Notes: a model not told the origin generated them from the letters alone. 64,000 nucleotides of DNA from Candidatus Peregrinibacteria bacterium (GCA_014240275.1 JAAZXH010000008.1:54857-118856), one strand, 5' to 3'; counted from the first letter of the stretch, positions 7,142 through 13,392 are shown. Program-made: numbers and translations.

Positions 7142-8113
7142 ATGTTTGATTTTCTCAAAAACTACCTAACAAACAAAGAATACGAAGTAATACAAAAAAG
7201 ATACTTTGAAAACAAAACTCTTCAAGCCATAGGAGATGAAATGGCTCTAACTAGAGAAAGGATACGACAAATCCAAAACAACGGTATCAACAAACTCAAA
7301 CGAGTAATTGAAACAACTAAAGTTCAATTAGTAATCGAAAAAATAGAACAACACTTGCAAAAAAACAGCAACCTAAGTTGCTACAAAACCCTCCAAAACA
7401 ATTTCCAAGAACATACAATTGGTGAATTGGAACTAATTGTAGATGCATCTCAAAACATTGAGACAATCAAAAAAACCCAAAACTTCAAACATTCATGCGG
7501 CTTAAACAACAAAATAGATAAAAACAAACTCAATCTAATTCATAAAAAAATCATCCAAGAACTGAAAACAAACAATAGACCAATCTGTACAAACAAATTT
7601 GTAATTGAAATACAAAAAAAACAAGATACATACACAAGTCAAAAAACAATTCAAGGGATTATTGAAATATCAGAACAAACAAAAATATTAGATAATAAAG
7701 TCGGTCACATAAGCTGTAGGGAAGTTAACCCAAAAAGCATCAAAGATAAAGCTATTATAGTACTAGAAAGGGCACATCAACCACTACACTTCCGCGATAT
7801 AAATCAAAAAATACACCTAGAAGAATTTGACAGAAAAACAGTAACTCTAGAAGCAGTCCACAATGAGCTAATTCGCTATGAAGATTTTGTATTAGTTGGA
7901 AGAGGACTTTATGCTTTATCTAAATGGGGGTACACAAAAGGGACAGTAAAAGATATAATCCATCAAATACTAAAAGAACATGGTGTATTATCAAAGAAAC
8001 TAATAGTTGCAAAAGTATTAGAGCAAAGACAAGTAAAAATCGGTACGATTAGTTTAAACCTACAAAAATACCCAGAATTTAAAAGAGTTGGAAGAGCCAC
8101 TTACTCACTCTGA
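7142..8113 (+). CDS. Sigma-70 region 4-like HTH protein with C-terminal HARE-HTH (RpoE/delta-like) module
   Basis: N-term 'KNYLTNKEYEVIQKRYFENKTLQAIGDEMALTRERIRQIQNNGINKLKR' (sigma region 4 type); C-term 'KDKAIIVLERAHQPLHFRDINQKI...VLVGRGLYALSKWGYTKGTVKDIIHQIL' (HARE-HTH type). Confidence 0.75.
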   Translation: MFDFLKNYLTNKEYEVIQKRYFENKTLQAIGDEMALTRERIRQIQNNGINKLKRVIETTKVQLVIEKIEQHLQKNSNLSCYKTLQNNFQEHTIGELELIVDASQNIETIKKTQNFKHSCGLNNKIDKNKLNLIHKKIIQELKTNNRPICTNKFVIEIQKKQDTYTSQKTIQGIIEISEQTKILDNKVGHISCREVNPKSIKDKAIIVLERAHQPLHFRDINQKIHLEEFDRKTVTLEAVHNELIRYEDFVLVGRGLYALSKWGYTKGTVKDIIHQILKEHGVLSKKLIVAKVLEQRQVKIGTISLNLQKYPEFKRVGRATYSL

Positions 8114-8552: not shown

Positions 8553-10025
8553 ATGAAGAAATTTACGAAAATTCTACTTACTATAATAATAGCAACAAAC
8601 CTATACTCAACACAAGCCCAAGAAAACAACCCAATAAAATCCCCAAAACTTATCAAGGCTGGTGAACCTAGTAATTTTTCTATAAATGACCAAAACTCAA
8701 AAACTAAATGGGATTTTGGTAACGGTAATAAAGACACAGGTGCAAATGTTGCACACACATACAATAAAGCCGGTATATATGAATTGAAAATAGAAAACCA
8801 AAACCAAACAAACACACAAGAAATTCAAGTCTACCAAGAAATAAACCTATTGATTCATGATAAAAATAATTTAGAAAAATATATTAACAACACACAAACT
8901 TTAGCAAACAACAACCAAAACCAAATCATAGCATTAGACACAAACAAGCATACCAACCCGTTTATAAACCAAGAAATAATTCTTGAGAAACTAACTCAAC
9001 TACAAGCTATAAATTTTGAGAAAATAGACAACATCATAATCTGGACAGACAATAATAACGGAATAAACCCTTTAATTCAATATTTAACAAAAAACCAAGA
9101 AATTAAAGTCGATAAAAAAAACATCTATATAGTAAATAATAAATTTGATAACAAAACACGATTAATAAGACAACAAAGAAGATTAAAAGCTAAAAACATG
9201 TATGTTATTAAAAGCCCTAATCTATACAGCTTAGCAGATAGTCAAAACACCAAAGAATTTGAAAAAAAACTTAAAGAAGGACTACTAGAATACGTAGAAA
9301 TCAAACCAGAAAACTATATATATAATCCACTAAAATTCTTATCACTTTCGATAGATTATTTAAGTGAAAAAGGAATACCAGAAAACCTAATTCAACTCCT
9401 ATTGCTAATACCCCTGATTTGCTTCTGGATTAGCTTTTTAAAACAAATAATAGGCCTATCAACAATAGGAGTATATCTGCCAATTGTTATTACACTCTGC
9501 TTTCTGATCTTAGGAATTTCAGTTGGGACAATCACAATGGCAATCGTATTTTTTGCAAGTAGCCTGAGCTCATACCTACTTAATAAAGTGCGAATGTTAT
9601 ACAGTCCAAAAACTTCGCTAACAATAGTAATTACCAGCCTAATATATACTATGAGCTTGAGCCTTTTAATTAAATTTAAAATTCTAGATATATATACAGG
9701 CCTAATGACAGTCTTCCCTACAATAATCATGTTAACTATGGCAGAAAAATTTGCCAATATTGTAAATTCTAAAGGATTAAAAAGTTGTTTTTTTACAACA
9801 CTTGAAACGTATTTAGTTATAATACTAACATACATACTTTGTGGAGGTACTTATTACTATCAATCCAAAGTTTATTCATTCCAATTCTTCAATCAACACA
9901 TTATCAACAGTCCAGAATTAATAATACTGCTAAGTGTATTTATATTTATTATTGGTAGATATACAGGGCTACAAGTGAGCGAATACTTCAGATTTAGAAA
10001 AATTTTAGATAACATCGAAGAATGA
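8553..10025 (+). CDS. Secreted PKD-domain protein fused to a 7-TM domain (7TM_transglut/UUP1-associated type)
   Basis: Signal peptide; PKD-like 'KTKWDFGNGNKDTGANVAHTYNKAGIYELKIE'; multiple TM helices ending 'GRYTGLQVSEYFRFRKIL', typical of the 7TM module next to RimK-related ligases. Confidence 0.75.
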   Translation: MKKFTKILLTIIIATNLYSTQAQENNPIKSPKLIKAGEPSNFSINDQNSKTKWDFGNGNKDTGANVAHTYNKAGIYELKIENQNQTNTQEIQVYQEINLLIHDKNNLEKYINNTQTLANNNQNQIIALDTNKHTNPFINQEIILEKLTQLQAINFEKIDNIIIWTDNNNGINPLIQYLTKNQEIKVDKKNIYIVNNKFDNKTRLIRQQRRLKAKNMYVIKSPNLYSLADSQNTKEFEKKLKEGLLEYVEIKPENYIYNPLKFLSLSIDYLSEKGIPENLIQLLLLIPLICFWISFLKQIIGLSTIGVYLPIVITLCFLILGISVGTITMAIVFFASSLSSYLLNKVRMLYSPKTSLTIVITSLIYTMSLSLLIKFKILDIYTGLMTVFPTIIMLTMAEKFANIVNSKGLKSCFFTTLETYLVIILTYILCGGTYYYQSKVYSFQFFNQHIINSPELIILLSVFIFIIGRYTGLQVSEYFRFRKILDNIEE

Positions 10026-12388
10026 TCAAATTTAAAGACATACTAGGAATAAACAGCAGGTATCTTGATTTCATCCTAAAATACAACAGTCAAGAAAAAA
10101 TGAAATTTGCAGATTCCAAACTAAAGACAAAACAATATCTCCAAGCCAGAGGGATACCAGTACCAAAACTACATGCAATAATTGACTCTTACGAGAATTT
10201 AAAAAAATTTGACTTTAACAACTTGCCGAATTCAACTGTTATAAAACCCAACCAAGGATCAAGAGGAAGAGGCATTATTCCTTTTAAACAAATCAAAACT
10301 AACGACTTTATAACAGTTAATGAGAAACATTATACTACAGATGAAATTAAATCTCACATCGCAGATATCATAGATGGTAAATATTCACTAGGAAACATAA
10401 GAGATAAAGCATTTTTTGAACAAAGAATAATAACTGACAAATCCTTACAAGCATTATCATACAAAGGACTACCAGATATAAGAATAATTGTATACAAAGA
10501 AACCCCAGCAATGGCAATGTTAAGACTACCAAACAAACAATCAGACGGAAAAGCAAACCTTGATGCAGGTGCATACGGATTTGGTATAGACCTAGCCACC
10601 GGTAAATTAACATATATGATAAAAGACAAACAGATTTATCAAAACTATCAAGAATTAATTCAAATACCAAATGATTTTAAAGTGCCATATTTTGATGAAA
10701 TTCTAAATATCGTATGTGAATGCCAAAAACATACCGGACTAGGATTTTTAGGGTGTGATATTGCAATAGATCAAAACAACGGACCAGTATTAATCGAAAC
10801 CAATGCGAGGCCTGGTTTATCAATTCAACTCGCAAATAAAGCTGGTCTCAAAAAAAGACTTATTCAAATAAACCAAATCAAAACTAAAAATATTAGTCAA
10901 AAAATTCAAACAGCAAAATCATTATTTTCTGATAAAAGTAGTAAGCCAAACAAGGAAAATAAAGAGAGAGTTTTAGGCTCCTATGAAAAAGTCAACTTAA
11001 TCGATCACAAAAAAATTCTAACCGGAAAGATCAACCCTACATCTAATAAAAACTTTATACCCCAAGAACTATATAAGCAGTTAAAAATTCAAGAAGAAAA
11101 TCCAAAAATTAAAATCAGACTTGGTGGTTTAAGACAATCGTTAATTTTTGAGGTTAAAAAAGGTATTAAAGAAATAGAAATTGGGATAGGTAATAATCAG
11201 AACTACCTATATAATCACACAAAAAAAGAGCAAAATAAATTACCTTCAATCAAAGTTAAAAAGCCAAAATTTGAATTCTACTTTAAACCACAAATAAATT
11301 ATGGAGAAGTCGACTTCCAAATACATCAAATCAGTAAAAAGTTAAAAATCCTAAGTAAACTTACACCTAAAAACCTAGAGTCTGAAATTAAAAAATTTAA
11401 AGAAAACACAAATTACAATCCACAGTTCGAATATGAAGACTTCAGTGACTTTTTATTTGAAAACATTAAAAAATTAAGAAACATTAAGGTCGAGGGAGAT
11501 GTTTTAGGACAAATATTTTTCAAAAAAATTAAATACTTAGAAAAAAACCTAAAAATGATTGCATGTATCGGAACAGAACAATATAGCGAAGCAAGTTTAG
11601 ATATCTATCGTGCTCCAACTATAAAAGAATTAGAATTAGCTGAAAAACACAAAAAAAATTCTAAACAGTACGACCAGTCAACTAATCTTTCTGCTAATGA
11701 GGCAAAAAAAATATTCTTAAAATTTGCAGAAAGCTCAAAACTTAAAAATATAGAGGTACAAATTAAAAATGATATGATTTCAGATGTAAGTGTAAACAAA
11801 AAGGGAACAATTTTTTTAAACAAAAATGCAAAATTCAACGAACAAAGAATTGAAAAATTAATAGCTCATGAAATTGAAACTCACATATACACAGCTATTA
11901 ACGGTAAAGACCAACCCTATCAAATCTTTCAAGATGGGCTAGCTAATTATTTATACACCCAAGAAGGTCTAGCAGTATACAACCAAGAAAAACAATTAGG
12001 TTTTAAAGAACCATGCCATGGAGCCAATACACTAATAAATAATAACTTAGTATACCAAAATTCCTTTGCAAACGGATATAAAGCACTAAAAAAACAAGGC
12101 TTATCAGATAATGAAGCTCTAAAAGCCTGCTTAAAAACCAAACGTGGCCTAAATGACACTAGTCAAAAAGGTGGGAGCTTTAAACCTTCTGTCTATTTTA
12201 TAGGAGTTCAAATGATCACAAAATTCCTAAACGAAAAAGGAGATTATAACAACTTATATATAGGGAAAATAAACATTGAAGACATCAAGCTTATTAAACA
12301 GGTGAAATCTTTAAATCCAGCCAAATTACTACCAAGATGTTATCAAAAAATTCAACGCATCAACAAGGAGGCGTCACCAAATGAATAA
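10022..12388 (+). CDS. ATP-grasp alpha-L-glutamate ligase-like domain fused to DUF1704 (MATCAP/QEGLA-type) metallopeptidase domain
   Basis: ATP-grasp motifs 'VIKPNQGSRGRGI', 'ANLDAGAYGFGIDLATGK', 'LGFLGCDIAIDQNNGPVLIETNARPGLSIQ'; C-term 'LIAHEIETHIYTAINGKDQPYQIFQDGLANYLYTQEGLAVYNQ' (HExxTH plus QEGLA). ATGA overlap with upstream gene. Confidence 0.85.
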   Translation: MIKFKDILGINSRYLDFILKYNSQEKMKFADSKLKTKQYLQARGIPVPKLHAIIDSYENLKKFDFNNLPNSTVIKPNQGSRGRGIIPFKQIKTNDFITVNEKHYTTDEIKSHIADIIDGKYSLGNIRDKAFFEQRIITDKSLQALSYKGLPDIRIIVYKETPAMAMLRLPNKQSDGKANLDAGAYGFGIDLATGKLTYMIKDKQIYQNYQELIQIPNDFKVPYFDEILNIVCECQKHTGLGFLGCDIAIDQNNGPVLIETNARPGLSIQLANKAGLKKRLIQINQIKTKNISQKIQTAKSLFSDKSSKPNKENKERVLGSYEKVNLIDHKKILTGKINPTSNKNFIPQELYKQLKIQEENPKIKIRLGGLRQSLIFEVKKGIKEIEIGIGNNQNYLYNHTKKEQNKLPSIKVKKPKFEFYFKPQINYGEVDFQIHQISKKLKILSKLTPKNLESEIKKFKENTNYNPQFEYEDFSDFLFENIKKLRNIKVEGDVLGQIFFKKIKYLEKNLKMIACIGTEQYSEASLDIYRAPTIKELELAEKHKKNSKQYDQSTNLSANEAKKIFLKFAESSKLKNIEVQIKNDMISDVSVNKKGTIFLNKNAKFNEQRIEKLIAHEIETHIYTAINGKDQPYQIFQDGLANYLYTQEGLAVYNQEKQLGFKEPCHGANTLINNNLVYQNSFANGYKALKKQGLSDNEALKACLKTKRGLNDTSQKGGSFKPSVYFIGVQMITKFLNEKGDYNNLYIGKINIEDIKLIKQVKSLNPAKLLPRCYQKIQRINKEASPNE

Positions 12389-13392
12389 AAACGATAATCA
12401 CTAGCCATTGCATGTTCATATATTTTGCGTGTTGCTTCACAACCTATAAATGCATTAATCAAAAGCAAAAGTGTGGATTTAGGCAAATGAAAATTTGTTA
12501 AAATACCATCAACCACAAAATCATCAAATGGTGGCTTAATAAAAATTTGTGTTTCTCCCTGTTGAGGCACAAATTTATTTGTTTCAAAATCAAAAACGGT
12601 TTGAAGCACACGTAAGGCAGTAGTCCCTAAAGCAATAATAGGATTATTATTAACCTTAGCATGATTCAAGTCAACAGACGCAGCCTCAGAAAACTCATAG
12701 TACTCTGAATGCATCTCATGATCAAAAATACTCTCTTTAATTGGAGCAAAGGTACCCAAACCAACATGCAAACAAACATCAATAAATTTTACACCTTTAT
12801 CTTCTAATTTCTTCAAAACTTGATCTGTGAAATGTAAAGAAGCTGTAGGAGCCGCAACAGAACCTTTAGTTTTAGCAAAAACAGTTTGATAACGATCTTT
12901 ATAGTAATTTGGATCATCAACATCAATATAAGGTGGTAGTGGAACCTCTCCATGAGACTCTAAGAATGCTAATATATCAAAAGAATGGATGTTACCAACA
13001 TACTGGATGATACGATGACCAGAGTCTGAAACACTTAAAACTTCAAAAACAAAACCACCAATTCTAAAAACTTTTCCTATTTTAAATTTCTTACCCGGCC
13101 TTACTAAAGCTACAAAGGATTTGTTGTTTATTTTTTTTAAAAAAAATAATTCATGTTCTGACTTATCAATCATAAACCTTAAGCGTGCTGGAATAACCCT
13201 TGAGACATTCCTGACCAAATAAGAATTCTTTGGTATCAAATTTACTATTTCTGAAAATTTATAATCAGTAATCTTACCTGAATTATAATACAATAAAGAA
13301 CTCATATCACGTTTATCAGAAGGTGCATTAGCAATTAACGATTTAGGTAAATCAAAATTGAAAAATAAATTAGCAGGAAGCGTGGAATTCAT
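12352..13392 (-). CDS. queA: S-adenosylmethionine:tRNA ribosyltransferase-isomerase
   Basis: 'RVIPARL', 'HGEVPLPPYI', 'DRYQTVFAKTKGSVAAPTASLHFT', 'HVGLGTFAPIK', 'TNFHLPKSTLLLLINAFIG', 'DYRFYSFGDASLL'. Confidence 0.96.
   Translation of the reverse strand: MNSTLPANLFFNFDLPKSLIANAPSDKRDMSSLLYYNSGKITDYKFSEIVNLIPKNSYLVRNVSRVIPARLRFMIDKSEHELFFLKKINNKSFVALVRPGKKFKIGKVFRIGGFVFEVLSVSDSGHRIIQYVGNIHSFDILAFLESHGEVPLPPYIDVDDPNYYKDRYQTVFAKTKGSVAAPTASLHFTDQVLKKLEDKGVKFIDVCLHVGLGTFAPIKESIFDHEMHSEYYEFSEAASVDLNHAKVNNNPIIALGTTALRVLQTVFDFETNKFVPQQGETQIFIKPPFDDFVVDGILTNFHLPKSTLLLLINAFIGCEATRKIYEHAMASDYRFYSFGDASLLMR

Follow-up and report, generated by a model that had tools for sequence, protein, structure and literature searches.

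An ATP-grasp ligase fused to a MATCAP-family carboxypeptidase domain beside an RloB-like membrane protein in Gracilibacteria-class genomes, and a candidate acceptor tail

Introduction

Why would an enzyme predicted to attach amino acids to a peptide end be carried on the same polypeptide as one predicted to take them off, and what would the two act upon? The question is raised by a pair of genes in a 64,000-nucleotide stretch of DNA from a Candidatus Peregrinibacteria bacterium (GCA_014240275.1, JAAZXH010000008.1:54857-118856), the whole of which is called the window here. The first gene encodes an RloB-like seven-transmembrane (7TM) protein, and the second a chain in which an ATP-grasp ligase, a degenerate retropepsin and a zinc carboxypeptidase domain of the MATCAP (DUF1704) family follow one another. 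Across related genomes, coupling of MATCAP to the ligase goes together with loss of the retropepsin motif and with a 7TM protein that ends in -EE.

Judged by its domains, the locus is related to the Rlo system, which is tied to osmotic tolerance, antibiotic resistance and biofilm, and for which we know of no substrate. The covariation offers a concrete and testable candidate, the C-terminus of the 7TM protein itself, and the locus can be viewed as a natural experiment of evolution, with one protease exchanged for another in the eraser role. MATCAP enzymes, familiar from tubulin, may also work in bacteria, there undoing what an ATP-grasp ligase has added to an -EE tail.

Results

The ligase/carboxypeptidase fusion

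Two open reading frames (ORFs) on the + strand, 8553-10025 (490 amino acids) and 10022-12388 (788 amino acids), overlap by ATGA, as a first-pass annotation of the window had described. The features of the second are as follows.

10022-12388, + strand: ligase/pseudo-retropepsin/carboxypeptidase fusion protein, 788 amino acids, predicted from domain matches (AlphaFold predicted local distance difference test score, pLDDT, 85)
10022-10882, + strand: ATP-grasp ligase domain, residues 1-287, RloC/RimK-like (PF14397 1.6e-64; TIGR02291 4e-79; RimK among the top folds)
10958-11227, + strand: degenerate RloA/RimB-type retropepsin, residues 313-402, with DTG changed to N338-P339-T340 (hhalign)
11309-12355, + strand: MATCAP/DUF1704 gluzincin carboxypeptidase domain, residues 430-778 (PF08014 5.2e-42, residues 459-778)
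11867-11884, + strand: zinc motif HEIETH, H616-H621, of HExxxH form (H, E and H invariant in 27 orthologues)
11960-11974, + strand: QEGLA motif with the predicted third zinc ligand, E648 (invariant in 27 orthologues)

The hidden Markov model matches to PF14397, TIGR02291 and PF08014 bear out the first-pass claim that an ATP-grasp ligase and a DUF1704 domain share one chain. The match to TIGR02291 (RloC-type ATP-grasp) scores 265.9 bits against a model cut-off of 314.2, and that to TIGR00768 (RimK family alpha-L-glutamate ligase) 38.4 bits against 143.4, the likeness to RimK being one of fold with weak domain similarity. PF08014 is matched at 144.5 bits against a threshold of 27, and TIGR02421 (QEGLA) at 9.5e-44, which is under the model cut-off. 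The closest solved structure is human MATCAP, both by sequence (7z5g, 3.2e-9) and by fold (3.6e-12, with RimK, 5zct, next); this and the PF08014 match agree with the proposed kinship of DUF1704 and MATCAP.

Twenty-seven orthologues with 36-45% identity to the window protein were aligned. Ligase residues K75, E133, R154, D246, E259, N261 and R263 are invariant or nearly so, H616, E617, H621 and E648 of the MATCAP domain are invariant, and HExxxH is kept in all of the fused MATCAP domains read (119/119); the tubulin carboxypeptidases TMCP1/2 have a zinc motif of this form as well (PMC10499314). Both domains were thus recovered by the searches and their catalytic residues retained among orthologues, the two points on which the first-pass annotation had staked its reading. 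A fusion with conserved catalytic residues is far beyond chance, and its sequence suggests a writer/eraser activity. A second, stand-alone MATCAP protein of about 347 amino acids is encoded at some distance from the ligase locus in some members of the class (L227, L228).

The fusion is single-copy in the source genome, was found in 29 of 39 relatives, and was matched in 208 of 290 genomes of the Gracilibacteria class, including relatives in which TGA is read as sense (L229, L230, L231 and L232 hold orthologues of this kind). A scan of genome contigs with a single sequence gave no match, and an alignment-based contig scan gave 202 relatives, the named ones being Peregrinibacteria, Peribacteria and Gracilibacteria. 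The genomes sampled are mostly metagenome-assembled, and all E-values and counts reported here come from sampled sets. The first-pass annotation had called for a survey of whether the fusion and its 7TM partner co-occur; the 7TM gene adjoins the fusion, directly upstream, in nearly all orthologous loci read, and the gene pair is a conserved locus of Gracilibacteria-class genomes. The 7TM gene of L232 lies 3' of the fusion rather than 5', and its product still ends in EEE.

The RloB-like membrane protein

The first gene has the following features.

8553-10025, + strand: RloB-like membrane protein, 490 amino acids, with signal peptide, PKD domain, Rossmann-like domain and 7TM module (PF14402) (AlphaFold pLDDT 84)
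8553-8618, + strand: putative signal peptide, residues ~1-22 (from the sequence MKKFTKILLTIIIATNLYSTQAQ and a model helix at residues 2-17)
8640-8837, + strand: PKD domain, residues 30-95 (PF00801 5.8e-9, PF18911 9.9e-9; the fold matches collagenase PKD domains)
8838-9338, + strand: Rossmann-like alpha/beta ectodomain, residues 96-262 (strands and helices alternate in the model)
9339-10004, + strand: 7TM module PF14402 (2.1e-21, residues 261-484)
9981-10022, + strand: cytosolic C-tail EYFRFRKILDNIEE with free -EE-COOH (codons 10017-10022), proposed as acceptor from covariation

The matches to PF14402 (7TM_transglut, 2.1e-21) and to PKD (5.8e-9, residues 30-87) both exceed their gathering scores. 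No transglutaminase ectodomain was found, a PKD and a Rossmann-like domain occurring instead, and these matches uphold the earlier view that a PKD stands in for it. The first-pass annotation was also right to place a PKD ectodomain before the 7TM module; it ended the protein at EYFRFR, the true end being EYFRFRKILDNIEE, and passed over the Rossmann-like domain between. A Pfam search of that domain (residues 96-262) matched no family, and a fold search with the PKD-7TM protein returned only PKD domains and unspecific Rossmann matches, leaving the middle ectodomain without an assignment. The NF052267 RloB model covers the 7TM part only, scoring 43.8 bits where the cut-off is 900, and a plasmid search for the 7TM module gave no match. 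In many relatives the 7TM protein is bare, with 210-310 amino acids and no PKD. Given these bare proteins, the extracellular position of the PKD, and the covariation of the enzyme with the cytosolic C-terminus instead, the earlier proposal that the enzyme is coupled to the membrane through the PKD finds no support. Overall, then, the first-pass interpretation keeps its fusion and MATCAP link and loses its PKD coupling, and it had overlooked the retropepsin remnant.

The retropepsin remnant

Residues ~313-402 of the fusion protein match nothing in Pfam. When compared by hhalign with the counterpart domains that retain DTGA in other Patescibacteria they give a probability of 99.7 and an E-value of 4.3e-26, and the corresponding linker of some orthologues weakly matches PF05618 or aspartyl-protease models. 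Elsewhere in the phylum, in other classes, this position behind the same ligase is taken by a domain with intact DTGA, and 25/25 of these intact domains match PF05618 as well as the retropepsin models RloA2 and RloA3. The domain in the window protein gives no match of its own to the RimB/RloA retropepsin family (PF05618) and has Asn338 where the catalytic Asp would be; in place of the secreted, active DTGA RloA of RloABC, the domain is fused within a cytosolic protein and has NPT for DTG. Since a D31E change kills RimB (PMC11957791), the retropepsin of the window, with its DTG replaced, is predicted to be dead.

Outside the class, in other Patescibacteria, an ATP-grasp and retropepsin protein follows the same 7TM gene, and MATCAP is adjacent, elsewhere or absent. 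Because the same ATP-grasp and 7TM genes occur there with intact DTGA, the locus can be read as a variant of RloABC: judged by its domains it is a relative of that system, with an RloB-like 7TM protein, an RloC-like ligase, a ligase-fused RloA-like retropepsin and a MATCAP domain added. Two of the ATP-grasp and retropepsin proteins, in L206 (3218-5782) and L208 (5408-8173), have 854 and 921 amino acids; the C-terminal extension of the latter contains an additional ATP-grasp domain, from a different family, giving a two-ligase fusion.

MATCAP, retropepsin motif and 7TM tail were tabulated for 194 informative loci, with the D[TS]GA state scored by alignment columns and MATCAP entered as 'none' where none lies within the stretch read (some such genomes have a distant MATCAP elsewhere). 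Of the 72 loci that have no MATCAP close by, 70 keep D[TS]GA; the motif is lost in 93/93 fused loci, nine of which retain D[TS]G alone; among loci with an operonic MATCAP, DTGA is lost in 9 and intact in 4. From this correlation we infer that MATCAP may have taken over the eraser role of the retropepsin. The remnant puts the system close to the Rlo family, and it is also the best evolutionary evidence for MATCAP as eraser.

The -EE tail

The 7TM protein ends in -EE in 95 of 102 loci that have a coupled (fused or operonic) MATCAP and have lost DTGA. These comprise 88 of 93 fused loci and 7 of 9 operonic loci with DTGA lost; the four operonic loci with DTGA intact have none (0/4). The same ending is found in 0/82 loci with intact DTGA, in 1/88 uncoupled loci, and, as a background, in 7 of 1291 unrelated ORFs. 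Between the conserved GLRxxEYxRF helix and the stop lie 6-26 residues, the final two of which remain EE. A ligase-domain tree of the quick type has the coupled/-EE state in no fewer than three separate groups, namely the Gracilibacteria clade, the loci L158/L159/L236, and the loci L212/L224/L237/L238. The 7TM reading of L240 looks frameshifted.

Discussion

A possible cycle on the membrane protein's own tail

The analysis establishes which domains are present, the conservation of the ligase and MATCAP catalytic residues and of the locus, the decay of the retropepsin, and an -EE tail that varies jointly with the loss of DTGA and with the coupling of MATCAP. These findings are consistent with an Rlo-type module with an exchanged eraser, in which the ligase would extend and MATCAP would trim the 7TM partner's own -EE tail. 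We favour this explanation tentatively and give it not quite an even chance. An RloB-like sensor with an external ectodomain would partner the cytosolic fusion protein; the N-terminal ATP-grasp domain would ligate at least one amino acid, probably glutamate (a guess from the ligase family), onto an acidic free C-terminus, and the C-terminal MATCAP zinc carboxypeptidase would take the ligated residues off. The middle retropepsin, presumably the eraser in related Patescibacteria, would persist after the loss of DTG to bind the tail or to serve as a scaffold. As acceptor, the 7TM partner's own -EE-COOH tail would be the likeliest candidate, and the charge or length of that tail might report or set the state of the envelope sensor.

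RimK adds Glu to the C-terminus of RpsF, which in E. coli is encoded as ...GDSEE (PMC11957791), and MATCAP/TMCP enzymes trim tubulin tails and also deglutamylate (PMC10499314). This chemistry fits a free -EE end, and it is for this reason that the fusion is proposed to act on the 7TM tail. The genes rloB, rloC and the peptidase RloA belong to one pathway (PMC12239564), and an rloB-like gene in another bacterium affects membrane vesicle production (PMC12096838). The Rlo mutants of Pseudomonas point to osmotic or envelope stress, and by analogy with them an envelope-stress role is conceivable here. A wider reading would make this a bacterial equivalent of the tubulin tail code, with one chain writing and erasing on the -EE end of its own 7TM sensor; an aspartic endopeptidase would have been swapped for MATCAP, and the tail would have changed along with it, in at least three Patescibacteria lineages. 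We put this reading forward with rather more reserve.

Several observations weigh against a cycle on the 7TM tail. The covariation comes down to about three independent changes, and an independent-pairs sign test, which has no contrary pair, has too few pairs for significance. There are exceptions: the fused loci L040 and L120 have the endings IFKK and IFKQN, L235 has EQE, L017 VE and L158 NE, and the uncoupled locus L205 ends in REEE. In the DTGA lineages the 7TM tail is basic, which means either that another substrate is used there or that the ligase needs no -EE, and an invariant -EE would be compatible, too, with a peptide that docks or mimics a substrate and never undergoes modification. 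In an alternative that we consider unlikely yet worth keeping in view, ligase and MATCAP eraser act on another protein, on free poly-glutamate or on an envelope peptide, with the 7TM protein as regulator or anchor and its -EE tail docked as a pseudo-substrate in MATCAP or in the groove of the dead retropepsin. RimK also makes free poly-alpha-glutamate and RimB is partly a stimulator of RimK (PMC11957791), the channel of RloA is positively charged (PMC12239564), and the non-acidic tails that accompany the same ligase in DTGA lineages indicate that -EE is not required by the ligase itself. Against this alternative, a docking motif could lie elsewhere in the tail, yet -EE is terminal across tails of 6-26 residues, as expected of the substrate end of a carboxypeptidase or ligase.

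That MATCAP trims proteins or peptides unrelated to the ligase, with the fusion serving general proteolysis or peptide recycling, would fit the stand-alone MATCAP homologues found in the phylum away from the ligase and the varied contexts of proteobacterial QEGLA proteins; we think it improbable, given that repeated fusion or operonic coupling to the same ligase coincides with loss of the ligase-linked retropepsin. Ribosomal protein S6 is a very improbable substrate: the ligase is RimK-like in fold and RimK targets the S6 C-terminus (PMC7343187, PMC11957791), but the relatives' S6 tails, read in 30 stretches (L278-L307; a few wrong-frame picks were left out), do not end in Glu-Glu and mostly have ...DPDINL-like ends, and the locus has a membrane protein and no ribosomal genes. 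The same S6 proteins have a long C-terminal extension with a conserved LDxKLxxIxDDPDIxx-like motif at its end. There is scarcely more to be said for -EE as an artefact, either of Shine-Dalgarno-like GAA/GAG codons for the overlapping downstream gene or of common descent, even though the stop overlaps the next start in the window (GAAGAATGA), GAG and GAA codons are purine rich, and most fused loci fall in one clade. A Shine-Dalgarno or overlap origin was rejected because -EE is kept in 26 of 27 fused loci that have gaps >25 nucleotides or the 7TM gene downstream, while short gaps are found at 82 of the 88 uncoupled loci and -EE is missing there with a single exception; in addition, two further clades have -EE, and tail length varies as the end stays constant.

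Comparison with known systems

The locus is most readily compared with Pseudomonas aeruginosa RloABC, which likewise has a PF14402 7TM protein (RloB), an ATP-grasp ligase-like protein (RloC, whose own type is TIGR02291) and a RimB/RloA retropepsin in one operon (PMC12239564). It differs in its PKD and Rossmann-like ectodomain, where RloB has an inactive transglutaminase; in its retropepsin, which lies behind the ligase, is cytosolic and is predicted dead, whereas that of RloABC is periplasmic and active; and in its added MATCAP zinc carboxypeptidase and the -EE end of its 7TM tail. RimK/RimB and the RimBK hybrid (PMC11957791) similarly combine an ATP-grasp ligase with a retropepsin eraser, fused in RimBK, and an acidic C-terminal acceptor. 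The locus differs from them in that the order is ligase and then retropepsin, the latter predicted inactive, that there are a MATCAP domain and a membrane partner, and that S6 tails are not -EE here.

The trimmed tubulin tail ends in -EE. In tubulin tyrosination and detyrosination (TTL, MATCAP/TMCP; PMC10499314) a ligase of ATP-grasp fold adds to a protein tail and an HExxxH carboxypeptidase removes from it, much as is proposed here. In contrast to that cycle, the locus has one bacterial chain, an RloC/RimK-like ligase rather than TTL, and a proposed tail on a 7TM protein. We know of no tubulin substrate for the bacterial fusion.

Proteobacterial QEGLA (TIGR02421) loci, for example in Sinorhizobium, also have a DUF1704 gene beside an ATP-grasp gene, an operon type reportedly discussed by Iyer et al. 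in 2009. Loci of the Sinorhizobium type have a glutathione-synthase-like ATP-grasp and an N-formylglutamate amidohydrolase; they differ from the locus described here in that they are annotated with this other type of ATP-grasp, are unfused, lack a 7TM partner and have no retropepsin annotated.

Neighbouring genes

Just upstream of the pair, 7142-8113 (+ strand) encodes a 323-amino-acid protein with sigma-70 region 4 and HARE-HTH domains, possibly an RNA-polymerase-associated regulator. The 3' end of the fusion gene is overlapped tail to tail, by 37 bases, by a gene on the opposite strand (12352-13392, - strand), which on our own reading we take to be queA-like.
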